From the NCBI GenBank assembly GCA_029717555.1, contig JAMDHS010000033.1, positions 62,001 through 126,000 of the forward strand: DNA of 64,000 nucleotides, read 5' to 3'. The notes under the pieces are model-generated. The model did not search any database and had not been told where the DNA came from. It saw only the letters and a program-made list of their open reading frames with translations. Positions 11,371 through 52,444 of the stretch are shown in pieces; the first letter of the stretch is position 1; each line of letters opens with the position of its first letter. This stretch comes from Peribolospora baueri (taxonomy: Eukaryota > Basidiomycota > Peribolosporomycetes > Peribolosporales > Peribolosporaceae). The position numbers and the translations under genes were made by a program.

Positions 11371-14300
11371 ATGTCGAAGCGCAAGCTAGCCGGGATGTCC
11401 TTTGCCCCGGCGCCTGCGGTGCATTCCAGCGACGCGCCCGGGCCAGCACCGGAGGATGACTTGCGGATCACCATGCTCGGCGCCGGGCAGGAGGTAGGCA
11501 GGTCGTGCTGCGTGATCCAGTACCGGGGCCTCACCGTCGTATGCGATTCTGGCGTCCATCCTGCCTTCACCGGCATGGCCGCTTTGCCCTTTATCGACGA
11601 GCTGGATTGGAGCACAGTGGACTGTCTGTTGATTACGCAGTAAGTGCGGACGCACGCACGAGAGGAGCGACATGAATGAAGTAAGGCGATGAGAAGCCGT
11701 TTTGTGACCGCCTGGATTGTTCACCACCAGTACAGTTTCCACCTCGACCACGCCGCTGCACTCACATACATCATGGAAAAGGTGGGCCTTTTTGTGCCTT
11801 TATCGCCATCAGAGCTTCTTTGCCCACATGGCGCCGGACCGTGCAAAGAATGGGCGCGTGTTCATTTCTGTCTCGCCCCCTCGCAGACCAACTTTAAGGA
11901 TGGGAAGGGAAAGGTGTACATGACCCATCCTACCAAGGCCGTGTATCGCTTTCTCATGCAGGACTATGTGCGACTGAGGCGAGTGAAACACCGCCGCTGT
12001 GTTGCGTTACCTGTGTTCATTCCTTTCTAATTTTGCTTCGCCCCCGATGTATACTTCTTTCACCCAATCAGTAATGCCGGCGCAGACGACCAGCTGTTCG
12101 ACGAGTCCCAGATGCTCGTCTCCTGGCGGCAGATCGAAGCGGTGGACTACCACCAAGACATCTCCGTCCGAGGCGGCTTGCGCTTCACGCCTTACCACGC
12201 AGGCCACGTTCTCGGCGCGTGCATGTTCCTTATCGAGATCGCCGGTCTGCGCGTGCTGTACACTGGCGACTACTCAAGAGAGGAGGACAGGCATCTCGTT
12301 CAGGCCGAAGTTCCGCCTGTGAGGCCTGACGTGCTTATTTGCGAGAGCACGTACGGAACCCAGAATTTGGTGCCGAGGTTGGATAAGGAGGCTAGGTTCA
12401 CCGGTGGGCGTTTAATCTTCTGGCCTCACTTTCGACCATCCTCTCGCTGCATACGTATCTGGCGGCTAATTTGCCTGCTTTATTGCACCGTGTTTCATTC
12501 CTCAGCCCTTGTCCACAGCATCATCCGCCGCGGTGGTCGCGTCCTCTTGCCCGTATTCGTGCTCGGCCGAGCGCAAGAGCTTCTCCTCCTCCTGGACGAA
12601 TACTGGTCTGCGCACCCGGAGCTGCACTCCGTTCCCGTCTATTACGTGTCCTCCCTCGCAAAACGATGCATCCAGGTGTACCAGACTTACATCCACACCA
12701 TGAACGACAACATCCGGTCGAGATTTGCGAGAAGGGACAATCCTTTCCAGTTCAAGCACGTAAGCAACCTCAAGGGTTTGGACAAGTTTGAGGACAGGGG
12801 GCCGTGCGTCTTGATGTGCAGCCCAGGACTGATGCAGAGCGGCGTTAGCAGGGAGGTGCTGGAGAGATGGGCGCCCGATAAGAGGAACGGCTTGATCGTA
12901 AGCGGCTACTCAGTGGAAGGGACGATGGCAAGAGTGAGCAAATGCCGATCTTTTGCATCCTCATAAGCCAGCTTTCCTTCCCACACCGACTGATTGACTA
13001 TGTGGACGCCCCTAATACAGACCATCCTCACCGAGCCCGAAGAGATCATCAGCATGTCCGGCCAACGCATTCCTCGACGCATGTCGGTGGATTACATCTC
13101 CTTTTCCGCCCACGTCGACTTTGCCCAAAACGCCGGGTTCATAGATGAGGTCAAGGCGCAACACATCGTTCTTGTGCATGGGGAGCAGAATGCTATGAGC
13201 AGACTAAGGGCGGCGTTACAAAGCAAGTACTCGGAAAGGGCTGAAGACGTCAAGATTCATACGCCGAGGAACTGCGACGTGCTCAAGCTCAAGTTTAGAG
13301 GGGAGAGGATGGCAAAGGTGCGAGCTCCTCTTTCCTTTCATCGCTCTCTTTTCCCCGTGTACACGCGACGATGGCATTTGTGCCTTTCTCTTTCCGGGGT
13401 GACCATCGTATGCGTATGTCTGGCTTGCTAAACACGCCCGTTTTTTTTTGCAGGCCATCGGCTCCATTGCCGCCAAGCCTCCGCCGCCAGACACGCTCCT
13501 TTCAGGCCTGATCGTCTCCAAAGACTTTGTGTACACGATTCTTGACCCTTCAGACCTCTCCGAGTTCACGGGATTGTCGACGAGCGTCATCGTTCAGAGA
13601 CAGCGTATCGCACTCGGCGTCAGTTGGGAGCTCGTTAAGTGGCACTTGGAGGGGATGTACGGGGGTTTGAAGGAAGGCGTGGACCCGGACAGGGTTCCGA
13701 CCGTGCGGGTACGTTTCCGACTTGGTCCTGGCGTTCCTCTTGGCGAGAGCTCACTAGAACCCTCCATTTTTTCATATTCCTTTGGCGGGCGCTAACGGAC
13801 GGAACAGGTGATGGACGTGATCGACATCAAGCATACTTCCGAGCACCAGCTCACGCTTGAATGGGTGTCAAGCGTTGCCAACGATATGATTGCCGACTCT
13901 GTCCTCGCACTGCTCCTTGGCATTGATCGGACACCGGCTTCAGTCAAGAGTGAGTTCGGCGACGCAACAAGGCCAGATGGAACGTTTGTGTCGTCATCTG
14001 TCCATACAGGATGAGGTCACATTTCCGGTTCTATTCGTTGATCGCTCGTTCCGCTGACGCTGGTCATTCGTTCTTTTCCGCTGCCAGTGACGACCCAACC
14101 ACACACTCATCTCCACTCGCACCCTCACGCCACCGCCGCCACCACGACGTGTGCGGATGCGCACTCGACCAAGTCTTCCTCCTCCCCTCCGGCGCCTGCG
14201 AACGTGCGAGCAGAGCGGATGCTGGCCTTTCTGGAGGCTCACTTCGGACCTGCAGAGGAATGCGTGCTCAAAGTCACACCCGAAGGTAGGATTGTGGAGG

Positions 14301-46317: not shown

Positions 46318-46684
46318 CCTTGGGTTTGGCCGCTTGAGGTGAATGGACGGACGAGGCCAATCTGATGGGTTGGGGTCCGTGTCACCGCCCCATCGCCGTC
46401 GCCGTTGCCGTCGCGTCGCGTCGAGCGTCCGATTAACTCCATTTACGCGGTTCGCGTCAAGCCGGATGGCGTGGCCACGCTTATGCCCGCGTATCTCCAC
46501 CGCATTCCACACCGCCTCGCGTCTTCTCCCGCGCCTTCACAGCCTGGCTAATTAGGGTTTATTAGCCTCAGCCTCGCCCAGCCGGCGACCTTGTCCTTCT
46601 TCCCATTCTTCCTTCCCGTCCCCCAACATCAACTTCTCCGTTAGCGCTGCTCTCCTTTCGTCAGCTTCGCTCTCGCTTGCTGCT
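46318..46684. promoter_or_regulatory. Divergent promoter of TOF1 and UAP1
   Basis: 367 bp between the two starts. A long C/T-rich stretch (about 46585-46670) directly precedes the UAP1 start, as often in highly expressed fungal genes. No coding content. Confidence 0.5.
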
Positions 46685-48232
46685 ATGCCCTCCGTCGACG
46701 TCGCTGCCCTCCGCAAGCGCTACCAGGCCGCCGGCCAGGAGCACCTGTTCTCCTTCTGGGACGAGCTGACGCCCGACCAGCAAACGTCCTTCGCCCAGCA
46801 GCTCTCCGAGCTCGACGTCGAGCGCGTCAACAGAGTCTACGAACAGGCCATTCAGGCTGCTACTGCCAAGTCGTCCAGCGGTGCGAAGATCGAACCCCCG
46901 CCGCCGTCGAGCACCCAGTCCATCGTGGGCCAACCGAAGAAGGAGGCCGACCTGCGCAAGGTCGGCCTCGAGGCCATCGCGAACGGACAGGTGGGCGTCA
47001 TCCTTATGGCTGGCGGTCAGGGCACTCGACTGGGCAGCAGCGCACCCAAGGGGTGCTACGACATTGGCCTGCCCAGCCACAAGACTCTCTTCCAGCTCCA
47101 GGCCGAGCGCATCGCTCGCTTGCAGACAGTCGCCGCTCAAGCGGCCGGGAAGAAGGAAGGAGAGGTTGTAATTCCCTGGTACATCATGACCAGCGGCCCG
47201 ACGAGAAAGGCTACAGAGACCTTCTTCCGGGAGAAGAAGTTTTTTGGCTTGAAGGAGGAGAACGTGATCTTCTTCGAGCAGGGTGAGCTAGCCACCACGT
47301 CGTCCGATCGAGTTGGGCCCGAGCTCACAACGTCTCTCGTTCTTTTAGGCACCCTCCCCTGCTTGTCCAACGAAGGCAAGATCCTCCTCGAGACCAAATC
47401 CAGCATCGCCGTCGCGCCAGACGGCAACGGGGGCGTATACTCGGCGTTGCGTGGGCCCACGTCGGCGCCAGGCGGCTTGTCGGTCATCTCGTCGCTCTCT
47501 CAGCGCAACATCCTCTACCTGCATGCGTACTGCGTCGACAACTGCCTCGTCAAGGTCGCCGACCCGGTATTCCTCGGCGACTGCATCTCCACGCAGGCCG
47601 ACTGCGGCGTTAAGGTGGTGCGCAAGACGCGGCCGTCGGAATCCGTGGGCGTGGTGGCCTTGCGAGATGGGAAGTTCGGCGTGGTGGAGTACTCCGAGCT
47701 CCCATCTGAGCTGGCGGAGAAGAGAGACGAGACGAGCGGCGAGCTGGCGTTCCGAGCGGCGAACATCGCGAACCACTTTTACACCACCGACTTCCTCTCC
47801 ACCCGCGTGCCCGCCTTCGAGAAGGAGATGGCGTTCCACATCGCGCGCAAGAAGATTCCCACCGTCTCACTGGACGCCTCTAACAGGGGCGAGTCGATCA
47901 AGCCGAGCAAACCGAACGGGATGAAGCTCGAACTGTTCGTCTTCGACGTCTTCCCTTACACCGAGCACCTCGCCGTGCTTGAAGTGGCGAGGGAAGAGGA
48001 GTTCAGCCCGCTCAAGAACGCGCCGGGGACGGGAAGCGACGACCCGGAGACGAGCAGGAGGGACCTGCTGGCGCAGCAGAAGAGGTGGCTCGAGGCTACC
48101 GGCGCCGAGGTCGCCGCCGAGGTCGAGCTCAGCCCGCTCGTCACCTACGCGGGAGAGGGACTCGAAGGCGCCAAGGGCAAGCGCTTCGACGCCCCCAAGG
48201 TCGTTGAGAGCGCCGCTCACCTCGCCGCGTGA
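46685..48232 (+). CDS. UAP1: UDP-N-acetylglucosamine pyrophosphorylase
   Basis: Makes UDP-GlcNAc from UTP and GlcNAc-1-phosphate, the donor for chitin, N-glycans and GPI anchors; cytosolic. Two exons, 46685-47282 and 47349-48232; 493 residues, the family size. The nucleotide-binding signature LMAGGQGTRLGSSAPKG (about 105-121) is followed by YDIGLPSHKTLFQLQAER, WYIMTSGPTR, FFEQGTLPCL, then APDGNGGVY, LHAYCVDNCLVKVADP, GVVEYSEL and LELFVFDVFPYTEHL, all as expected for an active enzyme. The 66-nt intron is a multiple of three without a stop, so a stop-free frame runs through the whole gene. Removing it gives the conserved FFEQGTLPCL, which supports splicing. The C/T-rich leader and long A/T-rich 3' flank suggest good expression, which is inference. 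Confidence 0.97.
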   Translation: MPSVDVAALRKRYQAAGQEHLFSFWDELTPDQQTSFAQQLSELDVERVNRVYEQAIQAATAKSSSGAKIEPPPPSSTQSIVGQPKKEADLRKVGLEAIANGQVGVILMAGGQGTRLGSSAPKGCYDIGLPSHKTLFQLQAERIARLQTVAAQAAGKKEGEVVIPWYIMTSGPTRKATETFFREKKFFGLKEENVIFFEQGELATTSSDRVGPELTTSLVLLGTLPCLSNEGKILLETKSSIAVAPDGNGGVYSALRGPTSAPGGLSVISSLSQRNILYLHAYCVDNCLVKVADPVFLGDCISTQADCGVKVVRKTRPSESVGVVALRDGKFGVVEYSELPSELAEKRDETSGELAFRAANIANHFYTTDFLSTRVPAFEKEMAFHIARKKIPTVSLDASNRGESIKPSKPNGMKLELFVFDVFPYTEHLAVLEVAREEEFSPLKNAPGTGSDDPETSRRDLLAQQKRWLEATGAEVAAEVELSPLVTYAGEGLEGAKGKRFDAPKVVESAAHLAA

Positions 48233-48490: not shown

Positions 48491-51048
48491 ATGCCGAGTC
48501 GAGACGCGTCCGACGATCGTCCGCCGCCATCCTCAATCCGATCTTCCATGCCTCGACCTCTCACCGTCATTCCGCCCTTTCGTCTTGCGGCCTTTCACTC
48601 GCCTCGACGAGCAGTCCCTGCCTACGCTCCTCATCCCAACGCACGCCCCATCGTGTTTTCCGCGCTCCTCCGTGCAAACCGCCCGCCTTTCTCGCGAGAA
48701 ACCCCGCCGCTGCCTCATCGCTCGCTCTCGCGCCTTCTCGTCGTCCGTCACCCCTATCGCTCCTTCATCGCCACCCCCTTCGCCCACATGCCCCCCACAC
48801 GATCCAGCTCGAAACGCAAGTCCGAGGCAGTGAAAGCGCCGGAAGTTGCTCCTCCCGCCGACGGCTCGCCGTCCACCGTCGCCGCACCCCCTGCAGGGGC
48901 CGGCCAAGACAAGAAGCGCACCAAGACGTCCAACGGCAACTCCTCCAAGGATGCCAGCTCCGCTAGCTCCCCAGCCGCACCTTCCGGCATAGAAACGTTA
49001 GCAGACCCGAGTCTCCCCACGAACAAGGACTTTCCCAAGTCGTTCGACTTCGATCCCAAGACGGTCGCGGAGGACGTGAGGGTGACGATTTGGAACGTCT
49101 GCTCGTTGAAGAGCTGCTCGAGCAAGGTCGGTGTCTCTTCAGAGAGGATGGGAGATGAGATTGCGTTGCGTTTGCTTGTTTGCTGAGTTCAATGCCTTTT
49201 CTTTTCTTCTGCGATGTCTTATGAACTCTTGCGTCACGCTCCCGACAGGGCCTTTTTACCTACCTAGAAGCAGAACAGCCAGACATCGCCATCTTGAGCG
49301 AGACGAAATGCAACGAGGTTCCCGACGTTCCTAGGCTGAATGACATGTTCGAGCATCAGTATTGGGGGATCGGGTCGCGGAAGGGGTATGGTGAGCTGGT
49401 TCGGTCTTTTCTCATGATTCGTCGTCGCTAGGGACATAATTATTGCGGAACGGGGGGCGGGGGCAGCATTCCGTGGTCGGACTAAATATTGCCTCTTTCT
49501 ACTCGTTGGCGCAGCCGGGCTCGCGGTGTTGTCCAAGCTGAAGCCAGACGGGGTGGTGTACGGGCTGCCGACGTTGCCTGAGGTGGACATGCGACATCGC
49601 TGCGTGAGCTTGCCCTTCCCCCCTTGTCACCCTGGTAACCCGCCGTGCGTCTTTCTCATCTTCATAAAAAACGACGTCCCACAGATCACGCTAGAGTTCC
49701 CGAACACTTACGTTCTCGCGGTGTACGCCGTCAACGCCGGCGAGGGACTGAAGGTGAGCTGTTCTTCTTCCTACTCCTTGTCCATTCCGCTCGTAATGAC
49801 ATCTTTCGACCCGATGTTCTCTCCGTGCTATCTCAGACTCTGGAAGAAAAGAAGCAGTGGAACACGGGACTAGAGACGCACGTCAGAGCGCTGGATAAGA
49901 AGAAGCCTGTCATATGGTGTGGCGATCACAACGTCGTCTTCGACGAGCGAGGTGAGATTTATTTCCGGCAGCTCCGTCGCCTGCCGGCGACGAGGCGAGT
50001 GCCAACTCTGCTTGACGGCGATGCTTACGATGACCATCCTCGATCTGCTCTCGGTTCGCAGACGTGGCGCTGGCTAAAAAGAAGTGGAATAAGGCAAGCT
50101 ATTTTCCTTTGCTTTCGTCTCCTCTGCCCGTATTTCTTGATTTTTGCGCTCGGCCGAGCCATCATCACTGATTCCCCTTGCTCTTCCTCCCCACCTTCGC
50201 TTTCGTCCACAGTCCGCCGGTTACACCCAGGTAGAATGCGACGCCTATCGCCAGCAGCTTGACCCTGGCCCAGACTCGGACGACAAGAGGTTCGTGGACG
50301 CATGGAGGAACGCGCACCCTGATGCTGCAGGGCATTATGTGAGTGTTGGGTGACGAGGTCGCGCCGCGAAGAGCGCATCGCACTGACTCTTCTTGGCTAC
50401 GTTGAATTTGCCTCGTCTCGATCGCGCTTCTCGTTCTTCTTCCGGTAGACGTGAGTCCTCGCCGTCCTCGACTAACGTCTTTGACGCACCTAACGCTGTG
50501 AGCGGCTGACCGCGCCGTGTCCCCTGCGCTACCCCATCGCATCTTCTCCAAACCCATGTCCAGATTCCACTCTTACCGCGGCTTCACACGAGGCAAAGGC
50601 ATCGGATGGAGACTCGACACGTTCAACGTGGGTTCGATTCGCCGCGTCCAGTTGAGCTCTCAAACCAGGCTCACATCGATTGTCATCCTTACTGCGCAGG
50701 TCTCGGAACGCATCCTCTCCCGAGTCAAAGCCTGCGAGATCCGGTGAGTCTCGAGTCGAGCGGAGCGCGGAGACGGCACCGTCTGCTAAAAAATAAAAAA
50801 TAAAAATGGGCGGTCGACCGCCGAGACGGGTTGAATTCGGTGCAGCGTGGTCGGGATTCATCTGCATGCCTTCCCCTCCCGTCCCATCCCATGCTTTCTT
50901 GTTTTACCGACTGTTCACAAACGTTCGCCTCTGCGACCCTTCCACCATCCCCTCCGAAACGTATTTGCTACCGGCTCCAAACAGATACACGGCGTACGGC
51001 GCAAGCGACCACATCCCCGTGATGGCCGACTTTGAGGGCCCGTTGTGA
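48491..51048 (+). CDS. Exonuclease III-type AP endonuclease
   Basis: Class II AP endonuclease of the ExoIII/APEX1 family, which cuts DNA at abasic sites in base-excision repair. Exons: 48491-49126, 49249-49390, 49515-49603, 49685-49753, 49837-49951, 50062-50093, 50213-50338, 50449-50450, 50564-50627, 50700-50743, 50985-51048; 460 residues from the first ATG. Catalytic features: IWNVCSLKS (Asn), ILSETKCNE (metal-binding Glu), YAVNAGEG, WCGDHNVVF (Asp, Asn), WNKSAGYTQVE, GKGIGWRLD and GASDHIPV (Asp-His pair). All appear intact. Three in-frame ATGs (48491, 48548, 48788) exist. The stretch before 48788 is Arg-, Pro- and Ser-rich with almost no acids, like a mitochondrial presequence. The form from 48788 (361 residues) starts with a basic SSSKRK motif suited to the nucleus. 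Exon 8 is only two bases and intron 6 has a GC donor. Confidence 0.9.
50094..50212 (+). other. GC-AG intron in the AP endonuclease gene
   Basis: The exon ending WNK is followed by GCAAGC and the next exon starts SAGYTQVE, the family sequence KWNKSAGYT. No GT donor nearby restores that join. AAG|GCAAGC is a good GC-donor context. Confidence 0.8.
50449..50450 (+). other. Two-nucleotide microexon (AC)
   Basis: Exon 7 ends in phase 0 after GHY and the next clear exon starts with one extra base before TTC CAC TCT TAC. A pyrimidine-rich CCGGTAG acceptor, the bases AC, and a consensus GTGAGT donor lie between. Including AC gives GHYTFHSYRGFTRGKG, matching the family pattern GHYTYFSYR. A longer exon is excluded because the codon just before AC in this phase is TAG. 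Confidence 0.75.
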
Positions 51049-51150
51049 ATGGAGGAGATGGCGTGTGGAAGAAGGGGTGGTAGGCATGTGCAGCAGGAGT
51101 GGTTGTAAAATGAATATGAAAGGTTGAATAGACACGTCGTGACTAGTCGC

Positions 51151-51410
51151 GACGGAGAATAAGTAGGGGATGTTAGCGAGATGAAAAACAAGGAGAAAAA
51201 AGTCTGCAACGGGGAGGGAAGATAAAGCAGAGAGAAAGAACGGGTTCTCAGCAAGAAAGAAACAAGTTTTGAACTGGGTGGGAGGATAACGGCAAGAAGA
51301 AACGCTTTTCAACAACGTCGTGACACGCGTCAAAATGGAAGGACGTGGACGGAGAATAAGTTGGGGAAGATTAGCGAGATGAAAAAAACAAGGAGAAAAG
51401 TGTCTTCAAC
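51151..51410 (+). repeat. Direct repeat pair, period about 197 bp
   Basis: The block GACGGAGAATAAGT-GGGGA, then TTAGCGAGATGAAAAA and ACAAGGAGAAAA, occurs at 51151-51210 and again at 51348-51410 with a few substitutions and indels. The copies flank the segment shared with the distant repeat at 8.9 kb, indicating a tandem duplication inside the element. Confidence 0.8.
51270..51340 (-). repeat. Dispersed repeat, copy B
   Basis: Reverse-complement partner of the copy at 8930-9002, about 42 kb away. The near identity implies recent spread or gene conversion. It lies between the two direct repeats of this block. Confidence 0.85.
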
Positions 51411-51713
51411 AAGAAAGAAACGCGTAGGACCCCGGACCAAGGATGGTCGCCGTGGGCGGGTGCGGCCCGAAGAGTGGCAGCCGTGAGCACTCAGTGCGGG
51501 GAACGCAGCCGTGCCCCGCATCGGAGTGGGGACATTGTGTATATAAAGGACTAATCTCCGCCAGGGGCGTGTTATTCCCCTGGTGAGACTCATACGTGCA
51601 GCGGGACAGGACTGCTTCCTGTGCACTTAGGACCGTCAGACGCCAACCGACGCTTCCCCGATCGTCGCACGCCGCACCGACTCGTCAGCATAGTCGAGGG
51701 ACGGTCCCCGACG

Positions 51714-51795
51714 GGAGGGAAGTGGAATATTGCACTGGCGGGAGGGGCGGGAAGTGGAATATTGCATGGCGGGAGAGGCGGGAAGTGGAATGTCA
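51714..51795 (+). repeat. Triple GGGAAGTGGAATATTGC repeat
   Basis: Three consecutive units of roughly 28 bp, each ending GGAAGTGGAAT, with the third diverging after that point (GTCAT in place of ATTGC). Non-coding. Confidence 0.8.
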
Positions 51796-52444
51796 TATCT
51801 ACAATACGTACCGTGGAACATCGCGACGACCTGTTTCTTTCTTGTTTTTCTTGCTGCTCTATCTTCCCTCCCCGTTGAAGACCCTTTTTTTCTTGTTGAA
51901 GGTTCCTTTTGTTTCCTTTAGACATTGGCTTGGGTCGAAGGGGGATCCGAGAGGCCGAGTGCCTGCCTGGCTGAACCCTCGAGCCGGCCGTATCTGCGGC
52001 TGCACGACTAGGTCTTGGGCATGGCGTTCGAGCAAGACAAGACCGTAGGGGGGCTGATCGACCTCGGGAACCAACGGCCCAGCTTCCAAGCCCTGAGGTG
52101 ATCGTCGTTTGACGAGTATCCCTCCTCGTCGGAAGCTTTTTACTGTCTTGGCCGGTCAAGCCGGTTATGCTCATGGTCATGCAAAAGGGTCACCAGATAT
52201 CGGAGTAGAGGTAAGGTCGGGTTTCATGGAGGACGCACGGTAATCGCCTTCGTGGAGTTGGAGACGGAACTCTGCGTTCTCGAACGTCTCGAAGGGCGTG
52301 TCTGACAGGGAGCTCGCCCCGTCGAGCTCGAGGAAAAGCGACTGTGAACGGCAGAGAAGAATGGCATATGTGGTGATGAAAACGGTATATACTTTGAATG
52401 TGGCGCCTGGCAGCAAGAAGAAAGAAAGCAGACGGACAGGACCA

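Follow-up and report, generated by a model that had tools for sequence, protein, structure and literature searches.

Exons shorter than one codon have been described in both fungi and plants. The CYP621A genes of Fusarium need a 1-nt exon, which is reported for 20 orthologues in the abstract and for 24 genes in the discussion of the source; SRA reads are given for two species, and the authors claim it as the first such exon in a fungal gene (PMC12940212). In plants, APC11 and VPS55 have 1-nt exons described as validated and as conserved among land plants (PMC4674806, PMC8831610), and intron definition plus recursive splicing has been proposed for the Arabidopsis APC11 exon (PMC4674806). Exons of 2–5 bp in Arabidopsis, Drosophila and human are cited in the Fusarium report (PMC12940212). 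In fungi, exons from 6 bp up are said to be frequent in the P450 genes of Phanerochaete (PMC1184071), and two 3-nt exons are found in lipS of Dactylellina, an ascomycete (PMC5639578). Stwintrons have also been described in fungi (PMC5639578, PMC9024468).

The window analysed here, a stretch of 64,000 nucleotides, contains a gene that very probably carries an exon of two nucleotides, AC. This exon and that of CYP621A are alike in several respects: both are fungal exons of less than 3 nt located between two short introns, in an interval about twice as long as a normal intron, and both came to light because the phases of the flanking exons do not match where a conserved protein motif is encoded. 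In contrast, the CYP621A exon consists of 1 nt (the G in AGGGT), occurs in Ascomycota and is backed by orthologues and SRA reads. The plant exons are likewise smaller than one codon, and VPS55 features GTRAGT donors, but they are 1 nt long and experimentally confirmed. Phanerochaete P450 genes and lipS resemble the present gene as fungal genes with tiny exons amid many short introns, although those exons comprise at least one full codon. The 2–5 bp size class covers the length found here, but its cited members are non-fungal. In stwintrons and in zero-nucleotide recursive splicing, adjacent introns are removed successively, as is likely in the present gene, but no exonic base is left, whereas two would be kept here. 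Searches of open-licence papers, mostly at the level of listings, showed no 2-nt exon in a fungus. The earlier note on this DNA had called exons this short extremely rare, which is fair; unprecedented would be unfair, because 1-nt exons have been reported in Arabidopsis, other plants and Fusarium. If real, the exon would rank with the shortest on record; going by these searches, it would also be both the first fungal 2-nt exon and the first sub-codon exon in a basidiomycete.

The gene was modelled with a self-written spliced aligner, the splice weights of which were set by hand beforehand and which imposes no minimum exon length. When run over the whole gene with two full-length orthologue templates (P0001 and P0002), the aligner returned the same ten introns and no frameshift. 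The features of the model are as follows.

48788-51048, + strand: APE1/ExoIII-type AP endonuclease gene (predicted), ATG to stop, 11 coding exons, 361 aa
48788-49126, + strand: exon 1
49127-49248, + strand: intron 1
49249-49390, + strand: exon 2
49391-49514, + strand: intron 2
49515-49603, + strand: exon 3
49604-49684, + strand: intron 3
49685-49753, + strand: exon 4
49754-49836, + strand: intron 4
49837-49951, + strand: exon 5
49952-50061, + strand: intron 5
50062-50093, + strand: exon 6, 32 nt
50094-50212, + strand: intron 6, GC-AG type (AAG/GCAAGC)
50213-50338, + strand: exon 7, ending ...AAGHY in phase 0
50339-50448, + strand: intron 7, 110 nt, GTGAGT...TTCTTCTTCCGGTAG, with 73 AG-free nt ahead of the acceptor
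50449-50450, + strand: exon 8 (very probable), AC, the first two bases of a Thr codon ACA
50451-50563, + strand: intron 8, 113 nt, GTGAGT...CCATGTCCAG
50564-50627, + strand: exon 9, whose first base completes the Thr codon
50628-50699, + strand: intron 9
50700-50743, + strand: exon 10
50744-50984, + strand: intron 10
50985-51048, + strand: exon 11, including the stop codon

Judged by its sequence, the gene is, as the earlier note had proposed, an AP endonuclease gene; it belongs to the APE1/ExoIII type, with a predicted AP-site cleavage activity. The joined exons encode 361 residues without an inner stop. The PF03372 profile matches residues 102–350 at 62.7 bits and passes the curated threshold (cut-off 24.5). 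The best solved relative is 5cfe (3.1e-46), followed by 2o3c (APEX nuclease 1) and other chains of APEX1. In alignments to 5cfe and 2o3c, the motifs WN, ETK, VYxxN, GDxN, GWRLD and SDH, which we take to be the active-site motifs of APE1/ExoIII AP endonucleases, are all present. A protein search found 372 homologues, the best 120 of which were used for comparisons; those that carry a species name are, as far as we recognise them, basidiomycetes. In a tree of AP endonucleases, the gene falls into no supported clade. A DNA search for a second copy in the genome (22.1 Mb, 178 contigs) returned this gene alone, and a DNA search for orthologous genes in a collection of viral contigs gave no match. 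When the whole genome was searched with the PF03372 profile, seven other places were found, of which five exceed the cut-off, and other family members thus exist. The profile search was silent at the AP endonuclease gene itself, whose coding sequence is divided among short exons.

Two GC-AG introns occur among the 18 introns modelled in two genes of the window, one at 50094 in the AP endonuclease gene (AAG/GCAAGC) and one at 11979 in a YSH1 homologue (GAG/GCGAGT).

The need for exon 8 follows from the reading frame. The junctions read TAT/GTGAGT (50336-50344), CGGTAG/AC/GTGA (50443-50454) and TCCAG/ATTCCACTC (50559-50572), slashes marking splice sites. Exon 7 ends with GHY in phase 0 at 50338, and exon 9 starts one base ahead of TTC CAC TCT TAC; consequently, two bases (modulo 3) are needed between them. 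The bases AC lie between a TAG acceptor and a GTGAGT donor, and a CAG acceptor follows at 50563. Splicing in 50449-50450 joins AC to A, yielding a Thr codon and the sequence GHYTFHSYRG. On all of these points, the sequence agrees with what the earlier note had read from it, and the note is also right that lengthening the exon in this phase would bring in a TAG, which occupies 50446-50448. On the 3' side, the same frame reads ACG TGA. Since AC is boxed by stops (TAG/ACG TGA), no longer exon in the same frame can contain it.

The restored residue is conserved. Among the best 120 of the 372 orthologues, 106 have Thr and 14 have Ser at the position encoded by AC/A, its column has no gaps, and the surrounding 35 columns have no insertions; the solved relatives have S (5cfe) and T (2o3c). 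This Thr precedes the Phe of a YTF motif which, in human APE1, presumably borders the abasic-site pocket. Skipping of exon 8 would shift the frame, retention of intron 8 would give T-stop, and retention of intron 7 would give VSVG-stop. Inclusion of exon 8 is therefore needed for a full-length enzyme; loss of frame at this point deletes the motifs GWRLD and SDH from the active site.

Spliced alignments covering exon 7 and everything downstream of it in the gene, carried out with the best 120 of the 372 homologues as templates, led to the same result. The 2-nt exon, flanked by introns 50339-50448 and 50451-50563, was picked with 120/120 templates, although these are related to each other and amount to fewer than 120 independent tests. 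Forbidding donor 50451 cost 16.2–22.2 half-bits (median 22.2). Both introns are canonical (GTGAGT...YAG), and their lengths are usual for this gene. The sequence itself, the reading frame, the conservation of the residue and the choice made by an aligner free to use any exon length are direct observations. Given these, exon 8 is in all likelihood the dinucleotide AC, flanked by GT-AG introns that would be spliced one at a time, and completes a Thr codon. We infer that it is included in the mRNA, and the product would be functional.

Other ways of splicing the interval were enumerated. Combining donors at 50230-50444 with acceptors at 50440-50624 (GT-AG, GC-AG and AT-AC) gave 42 single-intron in-frame solutions; seven of these have a GT donor, and none has a GTRAG donor or restores Y-T/S-F. 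If a GT donor, an AG acceptor and introns no shorter than about 45 nt are required, the interval from donor 50339 to acceptor 50563 has room for three small in-frame exons (30 nt or less), and AC alone keeps the motif.

As a control, the same aligner was applied to the YSH1 homologue with 12 of the 120 templates listed. Seven introns were found with 12/12 templates and an eighth with 10/12, and no internal exon shorter than 46 nt was introduced with these 12 templates. Beyond 14.1 kb, where YSH1 is poorly conserved, the templates disagree, and frameshifts occur in 8/12 alignments.

How often chance would produce such a solution was assessed with 600 dinucleotide shuffles of 50345-50549, in which the outer donor and the acceptor end were fixed and frameshifts were barred. 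None of the 600 attained the 144.5 of the real sequence; the best shuffle scored 136.3, and the median was 114.2. The best model contained two or more introns in 451/600 shuffles; a two-intron model as such is thus uninformative, and only the score tells. The pattern YAG-(AC or TC)-GTRAG appeared in 0/600 shuffles, and bare AG-(AC or TC)-GT in 72/600.

Genome-wide, YAG-AC-GTRAGT is found at 27 sites (12 + 15) on both strands of the 22.1 Mb, versus 28 (13 + 15) for the reversed control. Since the motif occurs at background level, the case for exon 8 depends on its position, and nothing indicates that AC exons are frequent. Over the 133 admissible positions of the interval, the genome-wide density amounts to 8e-5 expected occurrences, a figure that we estimate would about double if TC (Ser) were also permitted. 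In the 64-kb window, YAGNNGTRAGT was observed twice, with 1.01 expected. The acceptor at 50448 is preceded by 73 AG-free bases, within the 29–137 spanned by the ten acceptors of the gene; 3.0% (+ strand) and 2.7% (- strand) of the YAGs in the window have at least 73 AG-free bases upstream.

The 26 other YAG-AC-GTRAGT sites were surveyed with a codon-bias heuristic, which yielded a microexon model at 16 sites but not at the remaining 10. This model beat three rival models at 11 of the 26 sites, and five of the 11 exceed the 23.6 of the AP endonuclease gene on this heuristic, which favours microexon models because four splice-site scores are added up. Seven of the 16 models were inspected, and the survey neither reveals nor excludes more 2-nt exons. 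The most similar case, L016, was rejected as a 2-nt exon: the site is the end of an ordinary 33-nt exon (LGRAGYGATTD), and this reading matches SKN1/KRE6 (PF03935, 151 bits). A two-intron model at L016 drops residues of what we take to be a family motif of SKN1/KRE6. In contrast to L016, the two-intron model of the AP endonuclease gene loses no residue. A further site, L020, appears by eye to be an ordinary exon end in what is presumably a Sac1-like gene.

Three other explanations of the interval were weighed. The first is a single intron, 50339-50563, combined with a frame error near 50564, due to assembly or mutation, in which case AG-AC-GTGAGT would be a chance look-alike. Exactly this model was taken by 115/120 templates once donor 50451 was forbidden (two more chose a single intron with other frameshifts). 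The explanation nonetheless requires an error at the junction and, in addition, a motif that happens to bring back the conserved Thr, which the background density and the shuffles make rare (8e-5 expected; 0/600). Moreover, the intron would be 225 nt long, exceeding 7/8 of the other introns of the gene, yet it divides into two pieces of typical length, and the remainder of the gene is open. We regard a frame error as very unlikely.

The second explanation, which we find hardly tenable, is a single intron from a weak donor (GTGACG) at 50350, 11 nt downstream of the regular one, to 50563. The product, GHYVSVGFHSYRG, is open and in frame, and 3/120 templates took this route with donor 50451 forbidden; when the 2-nt exon was allowed, none of the 120 did. 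The donor is weak and lies close to a GTGAGT, Gly replaces the Thr/Ser found in 120/120 listed orthologues, and three residues are added where 0/120 listed orthologues have an insertion. The product could be a minor isoform. The third takes the 225-nt interval, with no internal exon, for a recursive-splicing site of zero length or for a stwintron, a nested twin intron whose inner intron disrupts a splicing element of the outer one. It has next to no probability: two adjacent introns with an AG near a GT are present, and stwintrons are known in fungi, but both arrangements leave no base between the introns where the reading frame requires two, and AC separates AG from GT (TAG/AC/GTGAGT), so that an AG/GT ratchet point is absent.

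Under the preferred reading, with AC as a true exon, introns 7 and 8 would each be recognised singly, by intron definition. If intron 7 were removed first, TATAC/GTGAGT would be formed; if intron 8 were removed first, CGGTAG/ACATTCC would be formed. In either case a normal single intron would remain, and the second splice would finish the Thr codon ACA of the YTF motif. Factors bound at 3' and 5' splice sites two bases apart should overlap, and sequential removal is therefore likely. The earlier note had deduced recursive or strictly ordered splicing, but nothing in the sequence fixes the order, and either would leave an ordinary intron. Conceivably, exon 8 enforces recursive splicing in two steps of fixed order and serves as a quality gate tuning the level of a DNA-repair enzyme in this fungus, because each failed splicing step yields an early stop or a frameshift; we consider this very unlikely. 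If exon 8 is real, intron definition would tolerate an exon too small for any exon-bound factor, and the gene would provide a compact natural test of splicing order. It would also be a warning that gene finders may break genes with sub-codon exons.

Additional sequence features were examined around exon 8. The CTAAC sites that the earlier note had seen in intron 8 exist, two in number, but their distances to the acceptor are 70 nt for the nearer and more than 75 nt for the second; a CTGAC is found 54 nt from the acceptor. YTRAY motifs are located 62 nt from the acceptor in intron 7 and 54–70 nt in intron 8, compared with 12–46 nt for the nearest motif in the other motif-bearing introns. Since half of the introns (9/18) have no YTRAY within 8–75 nt, branch sites are weak evidence here. 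The exon-side bases at the donors of introns 7 and 8 (TAT/ and GAC/) are poor. No special RNA fold was detected around exon 8 (z 0.34). The idea that introns 7 and 8 arose through tandem duplication was rejected, as the two show no similarity and 349/500 shuffles score as well. A search for U5 snRNA gave no match in the genome, nor in the control genomes, and an Rfam search of the window gave none either.

Directly upstream of the AP endonuclease gene, a single open frame of 558 aa (46556-48232, + strand) features a UDPGP domain (PF01704), and its product presumably resembles UDP-N-acetylglucosamine pyrophosphorylase. Downstream, the stretch 51151-51897 is non-coding and contains direct repeats and inverted arms (51187-51237 and 51847-51897, 84% complementary). 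A search with 51100-51960 gave 115 genome matches, its own place and own arms included, and the stretch resembles a dispersed non-autonomous repeat. The YSH1/CPSF73 homologue used as a control maps to 11.3–15 kb of the window (+ strand); its conserved part contains seven short introns on which the templates agree, and its C-terminal model is uncertain. The best matches to a rough YSH1 query from this window are from Violaceomyces, Pseudozyma flocculosa and Tilletia (73–79% identity), which makes Ustilaginomycotina the most likely placement of this basidiomycete. A YSH1 protein whose record names the fern Adiantum nelumboides (P0153) groups with fungal proteins (70% identity), a placement that suggests contamination of the Adiantum nelumboides assembly by a fungus.
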